Source: Clostridiaceae bacterium BRH_c20a
Lineage (GTDB): Bacteria > Bacillota > Peptococcia > Peptococcales > BICA1-8
Direction of reading: 5' to 3'
Assembly: GCA_000961765.1 (NCBI GenBank)
Contig: LADT01000026.1
Location: 1 to 64,000 of the forward strand
DNA length: 64,000 nucleotides
Shown here: positions 36,742 to 47,111 of the stretch, piece by piece
Layout: each line of letters opens with the position of its first letter
Position numbering within the stretch: the first letter of the stretch is position 1
Notes under the pieces: model-generated
What the model was told of the DNA's origin: nothing
What the model saw: the letters and a program-made list of their open reading frames with translations, nothing else
Databases searched by the model: none
Made by a program: the position numbers and the translations under genes

Positions 36742-37926
36742 ATGATTGGAATAAGCAAACTTTTAGTCGATACAAATAACTTTGGTGATACATTGCGCTA
36801 CAGTCACAAGTCCCAGGGTACCTGTCATGGGGCTACCCATGATCGAGGTCCTGTGGTAGTTTGGAACTGCACTAAAACCTGTAACCTAAAATGCATCCAC
36901 TGCTATGCAGGCTCTGACAGCAAAAAATATGATGGTGAACTGACTACTAAAGAAGCGGTTAAATTTATAGATGATTTAAAAAGTTTTAATGTGCCTGTTC
37001 TTTTAATTTCTGGTGGGGAGCCTTTTATGCGGGAAGATATCCTCTATTTGGCTGAATATGCAGCCAAATTGGGTATTCGCAGTACATTTTCCACCAATGG
37101 GACTTTAATAACCCGCCAAACTGCAAAAAAACTAAAGGAAATTGGCGTTGGTTATGTGGGTATCAGCCTAGATGGTCTGGGAGATAACAATGATAAATTT
37201 CGAGGACAAAAAGGTGCTTTTGAGCTGGCCTTAAGGGGTATTGAGAATTGTTTAGCTGAGGGCCAAAAGGTAGGCTTGAGGTTTACAATTAACCGGCATA
37301 ATTATCATGAACTTGATGGTATTTTTAATTTAATAGAAGATGTTAAAATTCCTCGGATTTGTTTTTATCATCTGGTTTACTCAGGGCGGGGCAGTGAAAT
37401 GATAAAAGAGGATATTTCTCATTCTGAAACTCGACAGGCGCTAGATCTGATTATAGATAAGGTCCGTTATTTTAAAAATAAGGGATTAGATAAAGAGGTC
37501 TTGACAGTTGATAACCATGCTGACGGTGTTTATCTTTATCTAAGGCTCCTTAAGGAAGACCCTCAAAGGGCCAAAAAGGTCTTGGAATTACTAAGGTTTA
37601 ATGGTGGTAATCGTACCGGCATAGCCATTGGTGAAGTGGATTGGTTTGGTCATGTGCATCCTGACCAGTTCACACAAAATCATACTTTTGGAAATGTTCG
37701 AGAGAATAAATTTGGTGATATCTGGACTGACCCTAAACATCCTATCTTAAATGGACTGAAAAATCGAAAGAACTTACTCAAAGGGCGTTGTGCCCAATGT
37801 CAGTGGTTAGATGTCTGTAACGGCAACTTTAGGGCTAGAGCCGAGGCCGTGACAGGTGATTTCTGGGAATCTGATCCTGCCTGTTATTTGACTGATGAAG
37901 AAATTGGTTTGTCCAAGGAGAGATGA
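36742..37926 (+). CDS. ahbC: AhbC/NirJ1-type radical SAM heme biosynthesis enzyme
   Basis: AhbC removes two acetate side chains of 12,18-didecarboxysiroheme to give Fe-coproporphyrin III in the siroheme-dependent heme pathway. The 394-residue protein has the N-terminus MIGISKLLVDTNNFGDTLRY, typical of NirJ1, and the SAM-cluster motif CNLKCIHC (about 53-60) preceded by VVVWNCTKT. A SISGGEPF strand and a C-terminal SPASM-like set follow (CAQCQWLDVCNGN, DPAC). It overlaps the next gene by a few bases. The final enzyme AhbD (NirJ2) is not in the window. Confidence 0.88.
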   Translation: MIGISKLLVDTNNFGDTLRYSHKSQGTCHGATHDRGPVVVWNCTKTCNLKCIHCYAGSDSKKYDGELTTKEAVKFIDDLKSFNVPVLLISGGEPFMREDILYLAEYAAKLGIRSTFSTNGTLITRQTAKKLKEIGVGYVGISLDGLGDNNDKFRGQKGAFELALRGIENCLAEGQKVGLRFTINRHNYHELDGIFNLIEDVKIPRICFYHLVYSGRGSEMIKEDISHSETRQALDLIIDKVRYFKNKGLDKEVLTVDNHADGVYLYLRLLKEDPQRAKKVLELLRFNGGNRTGIAIGEVDWFGHVHPDQFTQNHTFGNVRENKFGDIWTDPKHPILNGLKNRKNLLKGRCAQCQWLDVCNGNFRARAEAVTGDFWESDPACYLTDEEIGLSKER

Positions 37927-37928
37927 AT

Positions 37929-38396
37929 ATGGATAATATTGATAAGAACCTCTTAAGTATAATCCAAAAGGATTTTCCTGTCTGTTCCCGGCCTTTTCAG
38001 GAAATAGGTGAAAAGCTGGGAATAACTGAGGATGAAACCGTAGCACGACTCTCTGAGTTAAAGGAACAAGGGATAATCCGGCGTTTAGGTGCAATTATGG
38101 ATTCCCGTAAACTAGGCTATAAGAGTACCCTTTGTGCTATGGAAGTTCCTTCTGATAACTTATCCCAAGTTGTGAAAGTAGTTAACGACTATATAGGAGT
38201 AACTCATAATTACCTGCGCAATCATGATTATAATCTGTGGTTTACATTAATTACTCCCTCACAAGGCCATTTGGAGAAAACACTTAGGGACATTGAAAAA
38301 AGAACAGGACAAAAAGTCTATAACCTTCCTGCCCTAAGATTATTTAAGATCAAGGTGAATTTTCATGTACCGGGTGTAAAAGGAGGAGAGGGTTAG
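37929..38396 (+). CDS. ahbA: siroheme decarboxylase subunit AhbA-like
   Basis: One half of the AsnC-like heterodimer that decarboxylates siroheme to 12,18-didecarboxysiroheme. The 155-residue protein has an HTH-like domain (FQEIGEKLGITEDETVARLSELKEQGIIRRLGAIMD) and a substrate domain with HNYLRNHDYNLWFTL, the pattern of the alpha-type subunit. ATG 37929 (AAGGAG eight bases upstream) is preferred to ATG 37923, which overlaps the ahbC stop codon. It is coupled to ahbC and to the next gene. Calling A versus B relies on motif memory. Confidence 0.85.
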   Translation: MDNIDKNLLSIIQKDFPVCSRPFQEIGEKLGITEDETVARLSELKEQGIIRRLGAIMDSRKLGYKSTLCAMEVPSDNLSQVVKVVNDYIGVTHNYLRNHDYNLWFTLITPSQGHLEKTLRDIEKRTGQKVYNLPALRLFKIKVNFHVPGVKGGEG

Positions 38397-38869
38397 TGTT
38401 TAATGACTTGGACAAAGCAATTATCAAAGAAATTCAGGGAGACCTTCCTTTAGTTGCTCAACCTTACCGGGAAATTGCCTCACGGCTGGGTATTTCGGAA
38501 CAAGAACTATTAGAGAAAATTAAAGAGTTTCAGAAACAAGGATATATTCGGCGTTTTGGGGCAGCTCTGCGTCATAGGGAAATGGGATTAAAAGCTAATC
38601 CCATGATAATTTGGCAGGTGCCGGAAGAAAGGATTGAAGAGGTTGGTAATAAACTGGCTTCTTTTGCTCGAGTTACCCATTGCTATCATCGGGCAATGCT
38701 TCCTAAATTGCAGTACAATGTATTTTCTATGATTCATGCCGAGACGAAAGAAGAATGTTTTAAACTAGCAAAAGAAATGGCAGAGGTAATAAACATTGAA
38801 GACTATAACCTATTGTTTAGTGAAAAGGAACTTAAAAAAACCAGCATGAAATATTTCATGGAAGATTGA
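38396..38869 (+). CDS. ahbB: siroheme decarboxylase subunit AhbB-like
   Basis: Second subunit of the siroheme decarboxylase. The 157 residues mirror the previous gene: HTH-like segment YREIASRLGISEQELLEKIKEFQKQGYIRRFGAALRHREMG and the ligand region VTHCYHRAMLPKLQYNVFSMIHAE, which matches the beta-type subunit. The GTG start at 38396 shares its G with the stop codon of ahbA, and AGGAGGAGAGG lies upstream. A terminator follows. With ahbC and ahbA it gives the first two steps from siroheme toward heme. Confidence 0.85.
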   Translation: MFNDLDKAIIKEIQGDLPLVAQPYREIASRLGISEQELLEKIKEFQKQGYIRRFGAALRHREMGLKANPMIIWQVPEERIEEVGNKLASFARVTHCYHRAMLPKLQYNVFSMIHAETKEECFKLAKEMAEVINIEDYNLLFSEKELKKTSMKYFMED

Positions 38870-40748: not shown

Positions 40749-40816
40749 AGGATATAAAGTATTTTTATGGAATATATATTCAATAAAAATACTTTACAAT
40801 GAAGAGGGTGTTTGAT

Positions 40817-41476
40817 ATGAAAAGTGAAAAATATTTTATTCACCTTTCTTCGGAAGAACAGGAAGTATTTAAAGAGTATTCCATACCGCTGGTATTTCCA
40901 AAAGAACATAATATTTTTTCGCCCGGGGATGTGCCTAATTATATCTATTTTATCGAGGCAGGTAGAATAAAAATTTACAGAATTACAATGGATGGAGAAT
41001 ATATAACCATTTCCATCAGACATGCAGGTGAGGTTTGCGGCCTGGCTGAGGCTTTATGCAGCATGCCCCGGCAATGTTTTGCTATGACTTTAGAAACAAC
41101 ACGTCTGCAGGCTGTAAAAAAAGAAGACTTTTTTCAAATACTATCTATGGAGCCCCAATTAAACCTAAAAATTTCTCAAGTTTTAAGCAGGAGGTTACGG
41201 CATGCCGAAACAATTATCCACGATCTTGTCTATTATAATGTGGAGGCTAGGCTGGCCAGGCTGCTCCTAAGTATGTCTAAACAATGCGGACGCCAATATG
41301 AGGATCATATTATCTTAGACATAGTCTTAACCCATAAAGATATTGCCAGCATGATTGGTACTTCTAGGCAGAGTGTGACTCTTTCTCTGCAACAGTTCAA
41401 GGACAGGGGTATTATTGATTATCATAAGCGGGAAATAATAATATTGAATTTCGCCAAACTTCGAAATCTAACCTAA
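40817..41476 (+). CDS. Crp/Fnr family transcriptional regulator
   Basis: The 219-residue regulator has an N-terminal cyclic-nucleotide-type sensor beta roll (about 20-120, FSPGDVPNYIYFIEAGRIKIYRITMDGEYITIS) and a C-terminal winged helix (about 170-215, LTHKDIASMIGTSRQSVTLSLQQFKDRGIIDY) with recognition helix TSRQSVT. No Fnr-type cysteine cluster (CxxCxxxxC) is seen at the N-terminus, so it is not a classical oxygen sensor. ATG 40817 follows AGAGGG. It precedes the SLC13-AprA-AprB-Hdr operon, and a perfect palindrome at 41542-41557 may be its site. Confidence 0.9.
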   Translation: MKSEKYFIHLSSEEQEVFKEYSIPLVFPKEHNIFSPGDVPNYIYFIEAGRIKIYRITMDGEYITISIRHAGEVCGLAEALCSMPRQCFAMTLETTRLQAVKKEDFFQILSMEPQLNLKISQVLSRRLRHAETIIHDLVYYNVEARLARLLLSMSKQCGRQYEDHIILDIVLTHKDIASMIGTSRQSVTLSLQQFKDRGIIDYHKREIIILNFAKLRNLT

Positions 41477-41503
41477 AACACCTCGTTATGAGGTGTTTTT
41501 TGT
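41473..41503 (+). terminator. rho-independent terminator
   Basis: AAAACACCTC GTTAT GAGGTGTTTTTTG: a ten-base stem with six T, overlapping the stop codon region of the Crp/Fnr gene. Confidence 0.85.
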
Positions 41504-41541
41504 ACTTAGGGACTTGTATAACTTTGCCAAAAAATGATTTT

Positions 41542-41557
41542 TGTCAGCTAGCTGACA
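41542..41557. promoter_or_regulatory. candidate Crp/Fnr-family operator
   Basis: TGTCAGCTAGCTGACA is a perfect 16-bp palindrome. TGTCA-N6-TGACA has the symmetry and half-site length of Crp/Fnr operators. It lies between the regulator gene and the SLC13 operon, 220 bases before the transporter start. Confidence 0.5.
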
Positions 41558-41776
41558 TTTAAAATGCAAGCTAAGTGGCATTGAATTTGTAAATTACCTG
41601 ACGGTAGCTCTCCCTTTCACAAGCTATAATTAGGTAAGGTATTTATGTTGTCTATAAGCAGCTGAGTTATTGGCAAAATAAATAATATTTATGAAAGGGG
41701 TGTTGATCCGGAAAGTATAGCTTTTATATGTATTTATTTTATTAAGTATTAGGCAAATAAAAGAGGAGGAGAATTT

Positions 41777-43261
41777 ATGAGTACTGCAACTGTCAGTATT
41801 TCAACTGCCCAAAAACCCAATCTGATTTTTGGTATAGAACCTAAACAATTTTGGGGCCTAATCGCTGGTTTTTCAATTATGTTCTTGTTCCATTTCGGGC
41901 CAGCTTTACCAGGGCTCAAACCAGAAGCCCAGTCAGTATTAGGTGTATTCTTTTGGTTTATGATTATAATGATCTGCAATTCCCTGCATAAGTTTGTTGT
42001 TGGACTGTTAGCGCCGGGATTTGTAGTTATGCTGGGGAAATTTAAGATACCCGATGCTTTTTCAGCCTTTTCAAGTGATGCATTCTTTTTAACCGCCGGC
42101 GCTTTTGCTTTTGCTGCAATTATGATGGGAACACCACTGGGGAAAAGAATTGCGATTACTATTACCGACTTATTCCGGTCAGTTAAGGTAACGAGAATAT
42201 TTTTCGGGTTATCTGCCGCTGATTTTACCATCAGTGGATTCCTTCCTACTGTGGCAGAAACAGGCTTATTACTACCTTTGGCTAAAGGTTTTTCAAGTCT
42301 AATGTCCGGCAAGGAACATTTGCCAGAGACTCAAAGAATAAATAAAGGCTTATTCTTATTGATTTGCGGTTTGATGCCTCTTTTTACCAGTATGATTATT
42401 CTTACTGCTCACTTCCCTAATATCCTGATGGCAGGGATGCTTGAAGAAGCAATTAAAATTAAAGTAACTTGGATGGACTGGTTAATATTAAATATTCCCT
42501 TATGGGGACTAATGCCCGTCGCCTTTTTCTATACTGTTTGGTATTTTAAGCTGTGGAACGTGGAAATTCCTGGAGCAGCTGATGAACTTCCCAAGATGAA
42601 AGCTGAATTAGGACCCACTACTTGGTCGGAAAAATGGGCCTTAGGTTCACTGATTATTTGTGTATTCCTGTGGATAACAGAAAAAACTCTCCATAATTTT
42701 AGCACCGGCATGGTTGCTCTTTTACTGGTTCTTTTAGTCTTCCTGCCCTTCAGCAGAATTAAATACAGTCAAATTGGCCCACATATTATGTGGGATACCT
42801 GGATTTTATTAGGTGGTGCAATTTCCATGGGAACCGCACTTCATAAATCAGGCGCTGTTCAATGGATGGTTGATTTGGCACTGGCTCCTATGGGAGATAC
42901 AATTATTGCCCTCCCGCCTATTATTATTTTAATTATTGTTGTTATAGCCACTCAAATTGCTAGAGCTGGTATTGTAAGTGCTGCAGCCATGGGTGCAATG
43001 TTCATACCGCTTTGTATAACACTGGCACCGGAATTAGGCTTCAACATTTTGCCTTTTACTATGATTGTTGTAAACTGTTTAAGCTACTCATTCTTTCTCC
43101 CCATGTCGATCACTGCTTTCTTTATTGCTTGGGGTGCAGTAGATATGTCAATGGGTGAGGTAATGAAATTTGGTGCTCCACTATCTTTAATCTGTAATAT
43201 TTATACAATTTTAACAATGTCCATGTGGTTACCTTTAATGGGTTATCCCTTGATGCAATAG
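41777..43261 (+). CDS. SLC13/DASS family anion transporter
   Basis: DASS carriers move dicarboxylates, citrate or sulfate-like anions, usually with sodium. The 494-residue protein has about 11-12 helices and the paired hairpin motifs of the family: LSAADFTISGFLPTVAETGLLLPLA in the first half and TQIARAGIVSAAAMGAMFIPLC in the second. The usual SNT triads are not clearly present, so the ligand cannot be inferred. AGAGGAGGAG precedes ATG 41777. It is the first gene of the flavoprotein operon and presumably imports its substrate. Confidence 0.87.
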   Translation: MSTATVSISTAQKPNLIFGIEPKQFWGLIAGFSIMFLFHFGPALPGLKPEAQSVLGVFFWFMIIMICNSLHKFVVGLLAPGFVVMLGKFKIPDAFSAFSSDAFFLTAGAFAFAAIMMGTPLGKRIAITITDLFRSVKVTRIFFGLSAADFTISGFLPTVAETGLLLPLAKGFSSLMSGKEHLPETQRINKGLFLLICGLMPLFTSMIILTAHFPNILMAGMLEEAIKIKVTWMDWLILNIPLWGLMPVAFFYTVWYFKLWNVEIPGAADELPKMKAELGPTTWSEKWALGSLIICVFLWITEKTLHNFSTGMVALLLVLLVFLPFSRIKYSQIGPHIMWDTWILLGGAISMGTALHKSGAVQWMVDLALAPMGDTIIALPPIIILIIVVIATQIARAGIVSAAAMGAMFIPLCITLAPELGFNILPFTMIVVNCLSYSFFLPMSITAFFIAWGAVDMSMGEVMKFGAPLSLICNIYTILTMSMWLPLMGYPLMQ

Positions 43262-43288
43262 AATTTTTCTTCAAATGGGGGAGATAAA

Positions 43289-45055
43289 ATGTGTGCTGAA
43301 AAGGTTTTACCGAAAACAATCGATGAAATAGTACTTGAGGTTTTAGAAACAGATTTTCTGATTATCGGTGCCGGTAATGCAGGCTGCTTTGCAGCAATTG
43401 AAGCTAAAAGGCAAAATCCTAATTTAAAGGTTACCCTCATGGAAAAGGCCTATATTGACCGTAGCGGCTGTCTGGCAGCAGGTATGGATGCTATCAATAC
43501 TTATCTGAAAAAAGGCAGGACTATAGAAGAGTTTATTAAGTGGAGCCGTTCTCAGGCTGGAGGATTAATTAGGGAGGACCTAGCTATTAAGGTAGCGGAA
43601 AACCTGAATAAGCCGGTGGAAGAGTGGGAACAGTGGGGACTGCCTATAAAAAAGGATGAGGATTCAGAAGAGTATAAAACCAGAGGGAAATGGGATATTA
43701 CCATTCAAGGCGAGTCCATGAAGCCAATTATTGCTGAGAAAGTTAGAGAGTACGGCTGTGAAATATTAAACAGAGTAACTGCAACTAACGTTTTGATCAG
43801 TAAGGGGAAAGTAGTAGGAGCTGCCGGCTTTGGAGTAAGAAACGGAAAGATGTATGTAGTTAAAGCCAAAGCAACCTGTATTGCTACCGGTGGGGCTGCC
43901 GGTTTGTATAAGACCTATCAGAACGATGGTATTGATAGCCATCATCAGTTGTGGTATTGCCCCTTTAATACAGGTACAGGTTATGCCATGGGAATCCGTG
44001 CAGGAGCGGAAATGACTACCTTTGAAATGCGCTGGTGTGCAACAAGAACTAAGGATTTCAACGGCCCAATCGACACCATTTCTGTTGGCTATAAAACCCC
44101 TATGATAAATGCTAAGGGAGAAAAAATACTAGAGAAAAGATATGCCCATCTAGGAGGGGAAGCAGCACCTAGGTATATCCGGGCTAATGCCCCTATGGAG
44201 GAATGGTTGGAAGGCCGGGGTCCTTGCTTTGTGGATACCCGGAATATGAGTGATGAGGATATCAAACAAATGAAGACCGATTATCTAAATGAAAGACCAA
44301 CTTATGTTTTATTTATGGCTGCCAGGGGGCAGGAGTTAAAAGAGGAGCCAATAGAAATTTATGGTAATGACCCTTATATTGTGGGCGGTCATACAGCAAG
44401 CGGCTATTGGGTAGACACAAATTGGTCCACAACATTACCGGGCTTATTTGCCTGTGGTGATGTTTCCGGCGGAGTGCCTAATAAATTTGTTGGCGGCTGT
44501 GCAGCAGAAGGCTTATTAGCTGCCCAGGGTGCTGTTAAATATATTGCAGGATTGGAAAACCTGCCAGAGGTTGATGAAAAGCAAATTGAAGCAGAAAAGC
44601 TCAGAGTTTATGCTCCTTTGTTCCGTATGGAGCAGGAAGGTGACGGAGTTCAGTGGCGGGAAATGGAAGAGAGGATGCAGCGGCTGATGGATGAGTACGC
44701 TGGGGGAGTTCATCAATTTTTCCGGATGAGTGAAGAACAGCTAAAATATGCCCTAAAGAATATTAAAATACTTCAGAGGCAGGTTGAATATTTAATAGCT
44801 AAAGATTTTCATGACCTGATGAGCTGTCATGAAGTAATTGATCGGCTGGATGTAGCAGAAGTATTAATCCATCATCTTTTATTCCGTAAAGAAACCCGCT
44901 GGCCAGGCTGGCAAACCAGGGTTGATTATCCGCAGGTAAATAATGAGGAGTATGACTGTTTTGTCAATTCTTGTAGAAATCAAGAAACAGGTGAAATAGA
45001 AATGTATAAGCGCCCTTATGAACAAATCCTACCTGGTGAGAGGTTACAACCTTAA
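43289..45055 (+). CDS. AprA-like flavoprotein (adenylylsulfate reductase alpha family)
   Basis: FAD-dependent reductase of the fumarate reductase superfamily. The 588-residue protein follows AprA more closely than fumarate reductase: DFLIIGAGNAG (22-32), SGCLAAGMDAINTYL (with N70), GLVREDL-like GGLIREDL, GRW-like GKWDITIQGES, LWYCPFNTGTGYAMG (W222), FEMRWCATRTKDFNGP, and GGHTASGYWV (H368). The C-terminal helical domain ends with ETRWPGWQTRVDYP. Several AprA active-site residues (Asn, Trp, Arg, His) seem kept, but ATP sulfurylase and dsr genes are absent here. Its true acceptor is unknown. It is coupled to an AprB-like gene. Confidence 0.8.
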   Translation: MCAEKVLPKTIDEIVLEVLETDFLIIGAGNAGCFAAIEAKRQNPNLKVTLMEKAYIDRSGCLAAGMDAINTYLKKGRTIEEFIKWSRSQAGGLIREDLAIKVAENLNKPVEEWEQWGLPIKKDEDSEEYKTRGKWDITIQGESMKPIIAEKVREYGCEILNRVTATNVLISKGKVVGAAGFGVRNGKMYVVKAKATCIATGGAAGLYKTYQNDGIDSHHQLWYCPFNTGTGYAMGIRAGAEMTTFEMRWCATRTKDFNGPIDTISVGYKTPMINAKGEKILEKRYAHLGGEAAPRYIRANAPMEEWLEGRGPCFVDTRNMSDEDIKQMKTDYLNERPTYVLFMAARGQELKEEPIEIYGNDPYIVGGHTASGYWVDTNWSTTLPGLFACGDVSGGVPNKFVGGCAAEGLLAAQGAVKYIAGLENLPEVDEKQIEAEKLRVYAPLFRMEQEGDGVQWREMEERMQRLMDEYAGGVHQFFRMSEEQLKYALKNIKILQRQVEYLIAKDFHDLMSCHEVIDRLDVAEVLIHHLLFRKETRWPGWQTRVDYPQVNNEEYDCFVNSCRNQETGEIEMYKRPYEQILPGERLQP

Positions 45056-45088
45056 ATTCATAAATGTTGGACAAAGGGGGAATTAGTA

Positions 45089-45406
45089 GTGCCGCCAAAA
45101 ATTAACTTTAATAAGTGTGATGGCTGTAGGGCAGAAGAAGAACCACTATGTGAACAAATATGCCCTGGTAACTTAATGACTTTGCAAGATGGAAAAGCCC
45201 ATTGTCGGGGTGACCGTGACTGCTGGGACTGCATGTCTTGCACCAAAATATGTCCTCAAGGTGCAATTGAAACTAGGCTTCCCTACCAGCTAGGGTATTA
45301 TCCGGCAAAACTGATACCCAGAGTAGGTACCAATAAAATTATGTGGACCTGTGTGGATATTAACGGTAAGGTTGAACGATTTGTGGTTAAGACGAGAAAT
45401 GACTAA
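45089..45406 (+). CDS. AprB-like double-cluster ferredoxin subunit
   Basis: AprB passes electrons through two [4Fe-4S] clusters to the AprA flavin. The 105-residue protein has both cluster motifs: C10, C13, C21, C25 and C45, C48, C51, C55, with CDGCRAEEEPLCEQICP and CWDCMSCTKICP. The C-terminus (NKIMWTCVDINGKVERFVVKTRND) corresponds to AprB's SIMWTxxxRNGxxKRFxxxxR extension but is shorter. Start is GTG 45089 after AAAGGGGG. It lies 33 bases after the AprA-like gene. A short tail could mean an altered partner interface. Confidence 0.85.
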   Translation: MPPKINFNKCDGCRAEEEPLCEQICPGNLMTLQDGKAHCRGDRDCWDCMSCTKICPQGAIETRLPYQLGYYPAKLIPRVGTNKIMWTCVDINGKVERFVVKTRND

Positions 45407-45421
45407 TTAGAGGTGGAAAAA

Positions 45422-46615
45422 ATGACTGTAGGAGTAATACTTTGCCGTTGCAACGGGATGATGGAAAATCTGGATTGGGTGGCTATAGCAGATTTTCTAA
45501 ATAAGAAAAAGGATGTAGTTGATACTCTTATTCTAGATATTGCCTGTAGTCCTCAGAGTCAGCAGGATATGGTGGAGTTTATAGAAAGCCAAAAAATTGA
45601 CCGCTTTGTTGCAGCGGCTTGTTCTCCTCTAGTTAAAGGCGGTCTGTTTCAGGCCTTAGCCCGCAAAATGGGTATGCCAAACCAACATCTAGAACAGGTA
45701 AACATAAGGGAACAGTGTTCATGGGCTATTCAAGAATCAGGTCCTGCCCTAGAAAATGCTAAAATAAAGTTAAACATGGCATTGAAACGTCTAAGTAAAG
45801 TCAAAGATCTAGGTCACTGGCAGTTTAATAAGGCATATATCAATACATTAAGATGTGATAAGTGCAAAAGGTGTATTGAGGAATGCCCTAATGAGGCTAT
45901 TTCACTTGGAGTCGATGGGTTTCCTTTTGTTGACGGAAATAAATGTGTTAAGTGCGGGGTTTGTCTGGGGGGATGTCCCTTAGGAATTATCTCCCTGCCT
46001 AACTTCCGCTTAGAAGAAATTAACGGGATGATTGAAGAGGCAGCTAAATCTAAGAGCAAGCCCAACCTTATTGGTTTATTTTGCCCCCATGCTTATGAAG
46101 AGGCAGATGTTGTTAGTGCTAAGGGGTGCCCTGGACTAGCTAACTTAAATGTAATTTCCGTTCCCTGTTCTGGCGCGGTAAATATGGCTCTAGTAAACGA
46201 TGCCCTCGCGACAGGCATTGACGGTGTAATTATTGCAGGCTGTGAGCATAGCCAGTGTCAGCTTCGTAGGGGAAATGATTATGCTAAGAAAAGAATTGCT
46301 AATCAGCAGGAGACTTTAGAAGAGATGTTTTTGGAGAAGGAACGGCTTATTTATATGGCTTTTGACGAAAATTATACATCCTCAGCAGAAATAGATGATA
46401 AGATTTGTTCAAAATGTGGAATTTGTGAGCATGTATGTCCTTTTAGGGCTATTTCTTACTCCCCGGAAGAGGATAGAATGTTTATAAATCCACAGGGCTG
46501 CCGCTCTTGCGGTACCTGCTCCGCTTCTTGCCCAGCGGGTGCTGTTAAGCTACCTGAGGCTTGCGATGAAGAAATAATGGGAGCTATTGATTTGCTTATA
46601 GGGGAGGGTTATTGA
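45422..46615 (+). CDS. HdrA-N/ferredoxin/MvhD iron-sulfur protein (QmoB/HdrA-like, no FAD domain)
   Basis: Electron-transfer protein of the heterodisulfide-reductase/Qmo type. Order in the 397 residues: HdrA-like N-terminal domain (1-135; CRCNG at 8-12 and AACSP, then VNIREQCSW); two [4Fe-4S] motifs (CDKCKRCIEECP, CVKCGVCLGGCP); an MvhD-like domain (about 205-305; LIGLFCPHAYEEAD, VPCSGAVN, IAGCEHSQCQLRRGN); and two more clusters (CSKCGICEHVCP, CRSCGTCSASCP). The FAD-binding middle domain of HdrA/QmoB is missing. ATG 45422 with AGAGGTGG is preferred to GTG 45413. It follows aprB-like by 15 bases, suggesting electron transfer to or from AprAB. Confidence 0.85.
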   Translation: MTVGVILCRCNGMMENLDWVAIADFLNKKKDVVDTLILDIACSPQSQQDMVEFIESQKIDRFVAAACSPLVKGGLFQALARKMGMPNQHLEQVNIREQCSWAIQESGPALENAKIKLNMALKRLSKVKDLGHWQFNKAYINTLRCDKCKRCIEECPNEAISLGVDGFPFVDGNKCVKCGVCLGGCPLGIISLPNFRLEEINGMIEEAAKSKSKPNLIGLFCPHAYEEADVVSAKGCPGLANLNVISVPCSGAVNMALVNDALATGIDGVIIAGCEHSQCQLRRGNDYAKKRIANQQETLEEMFLEKERLIYMAFDENYTSSAEIDDKICSKCGICEHVCPFRAISYSPEEDRMFINPQGCRSCGTCSASCPAGAVKLPEACDEEIMGAIDLLIGEGY

Positions 46616-47049
46616 TGGCTGTCAAAATTATTTTCTGCAAAAACCAGAGATGCAGAACAGATCAGTTGGACTTGACTAGATTTAGGTGTGACCTTAAAAA
46701 GGCAAATCAGGAGTTTATTGAACTTCCTGATTTATGTATAAATGTAGAAAAGGTAAACTTAATTTACGGTGATTTGGTCATCTGCGGGTGTGATGAAAAA
46801 GTATTCAAAAGCAGGTTAGAGAAGAGTGGGAAAAAAATAGTCTTTGCTCCCATTAGAGAAGAATCTTTATGGCTTTATCAGGATAGAGAAGCCGGTTATA
46901 GGCAGGCTCTTTTACAGATAAAGCTGGCCCTAAATCGGCTTAAATTTAAAAGAAAGAATGATAAGCTACCTTTAAATAGCTTTAATAAAAAAATTAATGA
47001 TTACTTAGAAATCGTGCATGAATTAGGACCAAATCCTTTTAAAGTTTAA
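46615..47049 (+). CDS. HdrA-N-like small protein
   Basis: A 144-residue protein of unknown family. Comparison with the preceding protein shows a parallel: LVICGCDEKVFKSRLEKSGKKIVFAPIREESLW, then YRQALLQIKLALNRLKF, mirror its VAAACSP...VNIREQCSW...KIKLNMALKRL. It therefore looks like a diverged HdrA N-terminal domain alone, without ferredoxin motifs. It has an N-terminal C-x-N-Q-R-C pair (FCKNQRC). ATG 46615 shares one base with the previous stop codon (TGATG), after GGGGAGGG. It is last in the operon before a strong terminator. Confidence 0.62.
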   Translation: MAVKIIFCKNQRCRTDQLDLTRFRCDLKKANQEFIELPDLCINVEKVNLIYGDLVICGCDEKVFKSRLEKSGKKIVFAPIREESLWLYQDREAGYRQALLQIKLALNRLKFKRKNDKLPLNSFNKKINDYLEIVHELGPNPFKV

Positions 47050-47063
47050 AATATAGTTAATGT

Positions 47064-47111
47064 GGGGTGGTTCTTGCTTAGATCAATTAAGCAAGAACCA
47101 CCCCGCTTTTT
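47064..47111 (+). terminator. strong rho-independent terminator
   Basis: A 17-bp perfect stem (GGGGTGGTTCTTGCTTA and its complement, 47064-47104) with a 7-nt loop followed by GCTTTTTG, closing the AprA-like operon. Confidence 0.88.

Follow-up and report, generated by a model that had tools for sequence, protein, structure and literature searches.

Thiosulfate reduction to sulfide and sulfite, with the sulfite going on to a sulfite reductase, is known from the molybdenum enzyme PhsABC, whose PhsA subunit is periplasmic and linked to quinones. AprAB of Archaeoglobus fulgidus (2fja), an adenosine 5′-phosphosulfate (APS) reductase, carries flavin adenine dinucleotide (FAD) and two [4Fe-4S] clusters, has Hdr-type electron partners (Qmo) and stands upstream of DsrAB, and the 3′-phosphoadenosine 5′-phosphosulfate (PAPS) reductase of Methanothermococcus thermolithotrophicus (MtPAPSR, 8a8o; PMC10322725) has a related alpha/beta architecture with a short beta subunit and belongs to an assimilatory clade found with Sat, APS kinase and CysDN. 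HdrA-MvhD and Flx-Hdr modules combine an HdrA N-terminal domain, ferredoxin pairs and an FlpD domain with a bifurcating FAD domain and HdrBC. Here we analysed a window of 64,000 nucleotides (the whole stretch, positions 1 to 64,000 of the forward strand of contig LADT01000026.1) from Clostridiaceae bacterium BRH_c20a, in which an operon of five genes, preceded by the gene of a Crp/Fnr-family regulator, encodes an SLC13-like anion carrier, AprA-like and AprB-like subunits and two Hdr-related proteins. We propose, with a little less than an even chance of being right, that the product of this operon is a reductase with the AprAB fold, free of molybdenum and located in the cytosol, and that it releases sulfite from a small sulfo-anion taken up by the cell, thiosulfate being the likeliest; it would share its reaction with PhsABC, while belonging to an unrelated protein family and being flavin-based and fed by Hdr/ferredoxin proteins.

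The four nearest orthologues, used to scan GTDB genomes, gave 80 loci in two groups. Group 1 (36 loci) has the window's gene order and AprA-like proteins 56–90% identical to that of the window, nearly all at least 67%, and Group 2 (44 loci) is assimilatory, with about 42–49% identity. The AprA-like gene of the window (43289–45055, forward strand) encodes FAD_binding_2 and Succ_DH_flav_C domains. Its product scores 408–412 bits against the AprA family model TIGR02061, far under the cut-off of 641.75 bits, whereas the true AprA proteins of host genomes score 878–950 bits; it exceeds the cut-off of NCBIfam PRK06854.1-2, 'adenylyl-sulfate reductase subunit alpha' (657 vs 557), and falls under the curated cut-offs for fumarate reductase and succinate dehydrogenase (best PRK08275, 350 vs 587 bits). 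The original prediction had asked for a phylogeny of this protein, and in a maximum likelihood tree of 87 sequences, made by a quick method and with long branches that leave the deep joins uncertain, the Group 1 proteins form a single clade on a long stem (Shimodaira–Hasegawa-like approximate likelihood ratio test, SH-aLRT, 100), separate from canonical AprA (98) and from Group 2 with MtPAPSR. The clade may be described as a third class beside canonical AprA and the assimilatory/PAPS reductases. Another AprA subfamily, of about 600 amino acids, was seen on the Sat contig of some Desulfotomaculia (G081:C23:62799-64520, G078:C141:62336-64057 and G083:C4:50093-51808; L151, L152, L153), with the intermediate signature N-Y-R-W-N-W-(F/L)-R-T-G-I-R-Q-H-S.

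The active site was compared in A. fulgidus AprA numbering over an alignment of 37 Group 1 proteins, and for MtPAPSR with the help of PMC10322725. The residues assigned to the sulfo group and flavin in A. fulgidus, N74, W234, R265 and H398 (PMC2211403), are kept in 37/37 proteins, which bears out the conserved-looking Asn, Trp, Arg and His positions noted in the original prediction. Among the APS contacts Y95, Q145, V273, G274, L278, R317 and H446, only the adenine-clamp R317 (window R298) is retained, likewise in all 37; Y95W, E141R, Q145D, F261W, V273I, G274D and H446N are invariant replacements, and L278 is V in 35 of the 37. The resulting signature, N-W-R-W-D-W-W-R-I-D-V-R-D-H-N (in the window N70 W85 R132 W135 D136 W222 W249 R253 I261 D262 V266 R298 D331 H368 N398), differs from that of canonical AprA, N-Y-E-W-Q-W-F-R-V-G-L-R-D-H-H, and from that of MtPAPSR, N-Y-R-R-S-W-F-R-T-G-Q-R-A-H-K. 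MtPAPSR-type enzymes have a loop K-R-S/N and pocket residues T, G and Q; here the PAPS loop K120-R121-S122 is replaced by K134-W135-D136, the glycine at the phosphate site by D262, and the pocket reads I, D, V. It can be argued that the two Trp narrow the channel and that, together with the Asp at the phosphate glycine, they favour a smaller, non-nucleotide substrate; sulfo-transfer to the flavin would be kept and nucleotide binding probably lost. On these comparisons the enzyme appears to fail the defining tests of both the APS and the PAPS reductase families.

MtPAPSR is the nearest solved structure (48% identity, query-normalized template-modelling score, TMq, 0.87), followed by A. fulgidus AprA at about 40% identity. 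An AlphaFold model confirmed the fold of the AprA-like subunit; its predicted local distance difference test (pLDDT) values are below 50 in the active-site stretches 203–228 and 247–261, too low for a reading of the substrate pocket. The AprB-like 2x[4Fe-4S] subunit (45089–45406, forward strand) matches 1jnr_B and 8a8o_C in the PDB and scores 83.5 bits against TIGR02060, under its cut-off of 135.65. At 105 amino acids, compared to 104 in 8a8o_C, it lacks the C-terminal tail of AprB, in line with the shortened C-terminus noted in the original prediction, and it retains the electron-relay Trp (W46).

Neighbouring genes were counted within 8 kb of each aprA-like gene. In Group 1 an SLC13 gene is present at 35/36 loci, a Crp/Fnr gene at 33/36 and an Hdr/MvhD gene at 21/36, while AprB-like genes were found at 33/36 and, by tblastn, at the other three as well (36/36). 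These counts define a core of regulator, carrier, AprA-like and AprB-like subunits, whose recurrence in about 36 genomes (Desulfotomaculia, Desulfosporosinus, Moorella stamsii, Anaerospora and one Chloroflexi metagenome-assembled genome, MAG) argues against a chance grouping. Genes for Sat, CysDN, APS kinase or sulfate ABC transport occur at none of the 36 Group 1 loci vs 34/44 in Group 2, so that the sulfate activation and uptake genes linked to MtPAPSR-type assimilatory reductases are missing here. Membership in the assimilatory PAPS reductases was rejected on the differing residues and the lack of activation genes, and this activity was retained as a functional alternative. In Melainabacteria (L085-L090, L096, L104), as a separate observation, the Group 2 AprAB-like pair adjoins a conserved block that includes membrane proteins and a cysteine-containing protein of 127–142 amino acids with a CxxGxC-like motif.

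The genome of the window's organism (4.5 Mb, estimated 100% complete) was searched for ATP sulfurylase, CysD and canonical AprA, and none was found; a PF01507 match (C85) was rejected as CysD/CysH, being a single gene in a prophage-like region. With none of these genes in the genome and a clade of its own, an ordinary sulfate-reduction locus was rejected. The original prediction had found no Sat, Dsr or Qmo genes at the locus, which for Dsr holds within the window and not for the genome, where dsrA, dsrB, dsrC and a dsrN-like gene lie outside it; behind dsrA-dsrB-dsrC (L017, G000:C44:58000-73576) come genes for a TRAP transporter (dctPQM) and an IlvD-like dehydratase. Sat is present in 21 of the 34 Group 1 genomes and canonical AprA in 18, always together and, where comparison was possible, on contigs other than that of the module, which would make the module an addition to sulfate reduction and not a replacement. 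Both Sat and CysD are absent from 10 clade genomes, including those of the isolates Moorella stamsii and Anaerospora hongkongensis, and nine of these 10 pass the DsrA cut-off. DsrA is above the cut-off in 32/34 Group 1 genomes, and of the other two, both MAGs, one (1.4 Mb) has a dsrA fragment and the other weak hits only. In a set of 60 relatives, DsrA was found in 4/4 genomes with the module vs 13/56 without it (Fisher p 0.005), a difference to which shared ancestry contributes. Support had been anticipated from a clade of its own that keeps transporter and Hdr neighbours in genomes lacking sat and dsr; clade, transporter and lack of sat were recovered, but dsrAB is present in almost all hosts, an indication that sulfite is the product.

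The link to dsr is also physical. In genome G047 the operon, running from crp to hdrB (L039), lies 2.4 kb upstream of a complete dsr cluster (L128) on the same contig, with a YeiH-type gene in between, and in the Chloroflexi MAG operon and dsrA share one contig (L055). YeiH-type genes (PF03601, 'putative sulfate exporter') were seen inside or beside dsr clusters of module hosts (L155:15027-16397, L039:15800-17149, L055:9500-10630). The dsr order of G047, dsrT-K-J-O-P-M-A-B-...-N-M-K, is the same as in the published cluster of Calderihabitans maritimus KKC1 (PMC7306483), and its seven cooS genes (one split across two contig ends, one frameshifted) match the KKC1 number. KKC1 respires thiosulfate and sulfite and expresses its dsr cluster on pyruvate plus thiosulfate, yet no phs genes were found in it and its thiosulfate pathway, in the words of the authors, 'remains unknown' (PMC7306483). 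A module of this type beside dsr in the KKC1-like G047 would fill that gap. Because of this match and the narrowed channel, we favour thiosulfate over other sulfo-anions; the original prediction named no substrate, and thiosulfate is the leading, unproven candidate.

The carrier gene (41777–43261, forward strand) encodes a protein with the SLC13/DASS family domain PF00939 (144.5 bits vs a cut-off of 27; E 6.5e-42), which scores 169.6 bits in the DASS model TIGR00785, under its cut-off of 198.6. Both SNT ligand/sodium motifs of VcINDY are altered, to P-TVAET and SAAAM, and a clade-specific loop, xH(F/M/L)xN, is common to all Group 1 carriers, compared to GSPPN in VcINDY and GGARN in carriers of sulfate-assimilation operons. 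Carrier and enzyme have thus both diverged from their sulfate versions.

The gene for the electron-transfer protein (45413–46615, forward strand) encodes 400 amino acids in which Pfam and NCBIfam matches confirmed the predicted domains, arranged as an HdrA N-terminal domain, a Fer4 pair, an MvhD/FlpD domain and a second Fer4 pair (four Fer4 motifs). No Pfam match to an FAD/NAD domain was found in this protein, so that it lacks the bifurcation domain of HdrA, and HdrBC are missing as well, unlike in HdrA-MvhD and Flx-Hdr modules; the Moorella counterpart has the FAD/NAD domain, and an FAD-containing HdrA-MvhD occupies the same position in Moorella and Desulfovirgula. The last gene (46612–47049, forward strand) encodes 145 amino acids with conserved C9, C14, C42 and C60 and an IRE(E/Q) motif in the alignment. 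Neither Pfam nor a sequence search of the PDB gave a match, and the predicted likeness to HdrA-N is borne out at the fold level only, by a model (pLDDT 77) whose best PDB match is HdrA 8rvu_A (prob 1.00, E 0.014). The electron module varies among hosts: FAD-less HdrA-N/MvhD in the window and its closest kin, FAD-containing HdrA-MvhD with HdrC and HdrB in Moorella stamsii and G047, HdrA-MvhD with HdrC in Desulfovirgula and Desulfofundulus, FAD-less Hdr/MvhD followed by Flx-like NAD(P)H subunits in Acididesulfobacillus, and none linked in most Desulfosporosinus. Hdr/MvhD, not found at 15/36 loci, is accordingly one of several interchangeable electron modules and stands outside the core. The main idea of the original prediction, an importer paired with an AprAB-like reductase whose anion is not activated sulfate, is well supported by clade, pocket, lack of Sat, CysD and canonical AprA, and the atypical SLC13 protein; the Hdr/MvhD part does not belong to the core.

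Several observations weigh against thiosulfate reduction by this operon. The acidic D136 and D262 could go just as well with a positively charged group, for example the amine of taurine, cysteate or S-sulfocysteine, and the TRAP transporter beside the organism's own dsr locus could possibly supply another sulfite source, e.g., a sulfonate. Since many of the hosts belong to related Desulfotomaculia and Desulfosporosinus, shared ancestry accounts for part of the association with dsr, and gene absence in drafts is a weak argument: Sat seems to be missing as well from the draft of Desulfosporosinus metallidurans, which we take from its genus to be a sulfate reducer. That G047 is C. maritimus we infer from the dsr order and the seven cooS genes, and in the main text of PMC7306483 the genes upstream of dsrT are not listed as changed. 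A literature search on thiosulfate use by Moorella stamsii or Anaerospora gave nothing decisive, and Moorella thermoacetica, a reported thiosulfate user, did not turn up in the GTDB scan for the clade.

All the genomic signs of a sulfite-producing module would hold just as well if sulfite were released for DsrAB from an organosulfonate, an S-sulfo compound or a polythionate, a reading that we consider rather unlikely. The invariant Asp at two channel positions would suit a zwitterion, the organism's dsr locus adjoins a TRAP transporter and an IlvD-like dehydratase, and organosulfonate use is documented for sulfite-only dsr organisms (PMC10591310); on the other hand, the thiosulfate gap in a Calderihabitans-like genome is a specific match for thiosulfate. 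Anaerobic C–S cleavage is known from radical, lyase or thiamine enzymes and is not known to use flavin N5 chemistry. An APS or PAPS reductase, assimilatory or dissimilatory, that looks like an orphan only through overlooked sulfate activation is improbable: the PRK06854.1-2 score (657 vs 557), the PAPS reductase 8a8o as nearest structure, the adenine-clamp R298 and the SLC13 protein in true assimilation operons of Orenia and Halonatronum (c57) would fit it, but 10 clade genomes have neither Sat nor CysD, no activation gene occurs in the 36 operons, the APS/PAPS-contact residues are replaced in all members and the c57 carriers have different motifs.

We regard as similarly improbable a fumarate-like reductase of organic acids, to which the shared superfamily and the dicarboxylate carriers of SLC13 lend some support. 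The window's genome does encode AprA/fumarate-reductase-like flavoproteins next to organic-acid type transporters, one (G000:C81:78843-80501, L045) beside a TTT transporter and an aldehyde:ferredoxin oxidoreductase, the other (G000:C19:119103-120734, L046) beside a TRAP transporter and an MmgE/PrpD-like gene, yet both are without the sulfo-residue set that the clade keeps without exception; the match to the fumarate-reductase fold is distinctly worse (TMq about 0.75, compared to 0.87 for 8a8o), and the operon is linked to dsr. It is very improbable that the enzyme works oxidatively, taking up sulfite for detoxification or energy gain with the carrier exporting the product. AprAB is reversible in sulfur oxidizers (PMC2211403) and the YeiH-type carrier accompanies dsr clusters and the module, but the lack of a nucleotide acceptor leaves the reaction with no evident product, Dsr works reductively in these anaerobic hosts, electrons normally flow inward through Flx/Hdr modules, and MtPAPSR showed no activity in the reverse direction (PMC10322725).

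Returning to thiosulfate reduction, we infer for the AprAB-like enzyme a chemistry, direction and electron route of the following kind. The SLC13-like carrier would import thiosulfate. Reduced ferredoxin, NAD(P)H or formate/H2 would serve as the source of low-potential electrons, which, brought in by Hdr/MvhD- or Flx-type proteins, would enter the AprB-like clusters through the Hdr/MvhD-like protein and then reduce the FAD bound to the AprA-like subunit; in other hosts they would arrive by way of HdrA-HdrC-HdrB, of HdrA with Flx-like NAD(P)H dehydrogenase subunits, or from a donor whose genes are not linked. A low-potential Hdr/ferredoxin donor matches the strongly negative potential, about -0.4 V, of the thiosulfate/(sulfide + sulfite) couple. 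Following the scheme put forward for APS reductase, the reduced flavin N5 would attack the sulfonyl sulfur, which the conserved Asn, His, Arg and Trp would keep in place, expelling HS- from thiosulfate in place of adenosine monophosphate from APS, and the flavin–sulfite adduct would break down to sulfite, which DsrAB/DsrC would reduce to sulfide.

All six predicted open reading frames were found. The regulator gene (40799–41476, forward strand; alternative in-frame ATG at 40817, the start used in the original prediction) forms its own transcription unit, and its product has the cyclic-nucleotide-binding fold and Crp-type helix-turn-helix of Crp/Fnr regulators (PF00027 and PF13545, above cut-off), with IGTSRQSVTLSL in the region of the recognition helix. 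A terminator-like hairpin of 11 pairs with a T run directly 3′ of crp (41475–41499, forward strand) sets the beginning of the operon proper at the SLC13 gene. From there five co-directed genes follow with gaps of 27, 33 and 6 bases and a 4-base overlap, up to an intrinsic terminator with a 20-pair stem and T run (47062–47106, forward strand), an arrangement that agrees with the predicted operon. The perfect palindrome TGTCAGCTAGCTGACA (41542–41557, no strand assigned), 235 bases upstream of the SLC13 start, is probably the Crp/Fnr-type operator, at which the regulator would switch the operon on or off. TGTC-N8-GACA precedes the SLC13 gene at 22/33 clade loci (hand count), and a stricter 10-base pattern at 6/33 vs a shuffled mean of 0.13. 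The motif is not enriched across the window's genome (9 sites vs 14 in the control) and does not occur in the dsr loci examined, so that no regulon connection between the Crp/Fnr protein and dsr could be demonstrated; this suggests a dedicated local regulator. Near the operon, at 36742–38869 of the window, lie genes for an ahbC/nirJ1-like radical SAM protein and two siroheme decarboxylases (ahbA/ahbB-like), read as siroheme-based heme synthesis.

The locus is thus real, conserved and distinct from an ordinary sulfate-reduction locus, with an APS-reductase-like fold and probably its flavin chemistry, and the clade lends itself to testing how an enzyme that reduces sulfo-nucleotides can be retuned toward a small substrate. 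A curated NCBI model labels the clade 'adenylyl-sulfate reductase', and pocket and genome context argue against APS. Slightly more tentative than the proposal of sulfite release is that of a new molybdenum-free class of thiosulfate reductase with its own importer and regulator, using flavin N5-sulfonyl chemistry, feeding DsrAB and explaining thiosulfate respiration in dsrAB-containing anaerobes without phs. If true, it would supply the missing step of thiosulfate respiration in organisms like Calderihabitans maritimus (PMC7306483) and give a second, flavin-based route to a reaction so far known from a molybdenum enzyme alone. The aprA gene serves as a marker for sulfate reducers and sulfur oxidizers, and aprAB together with dsrAB would then be no safe basis for inferring sulfate reduction.

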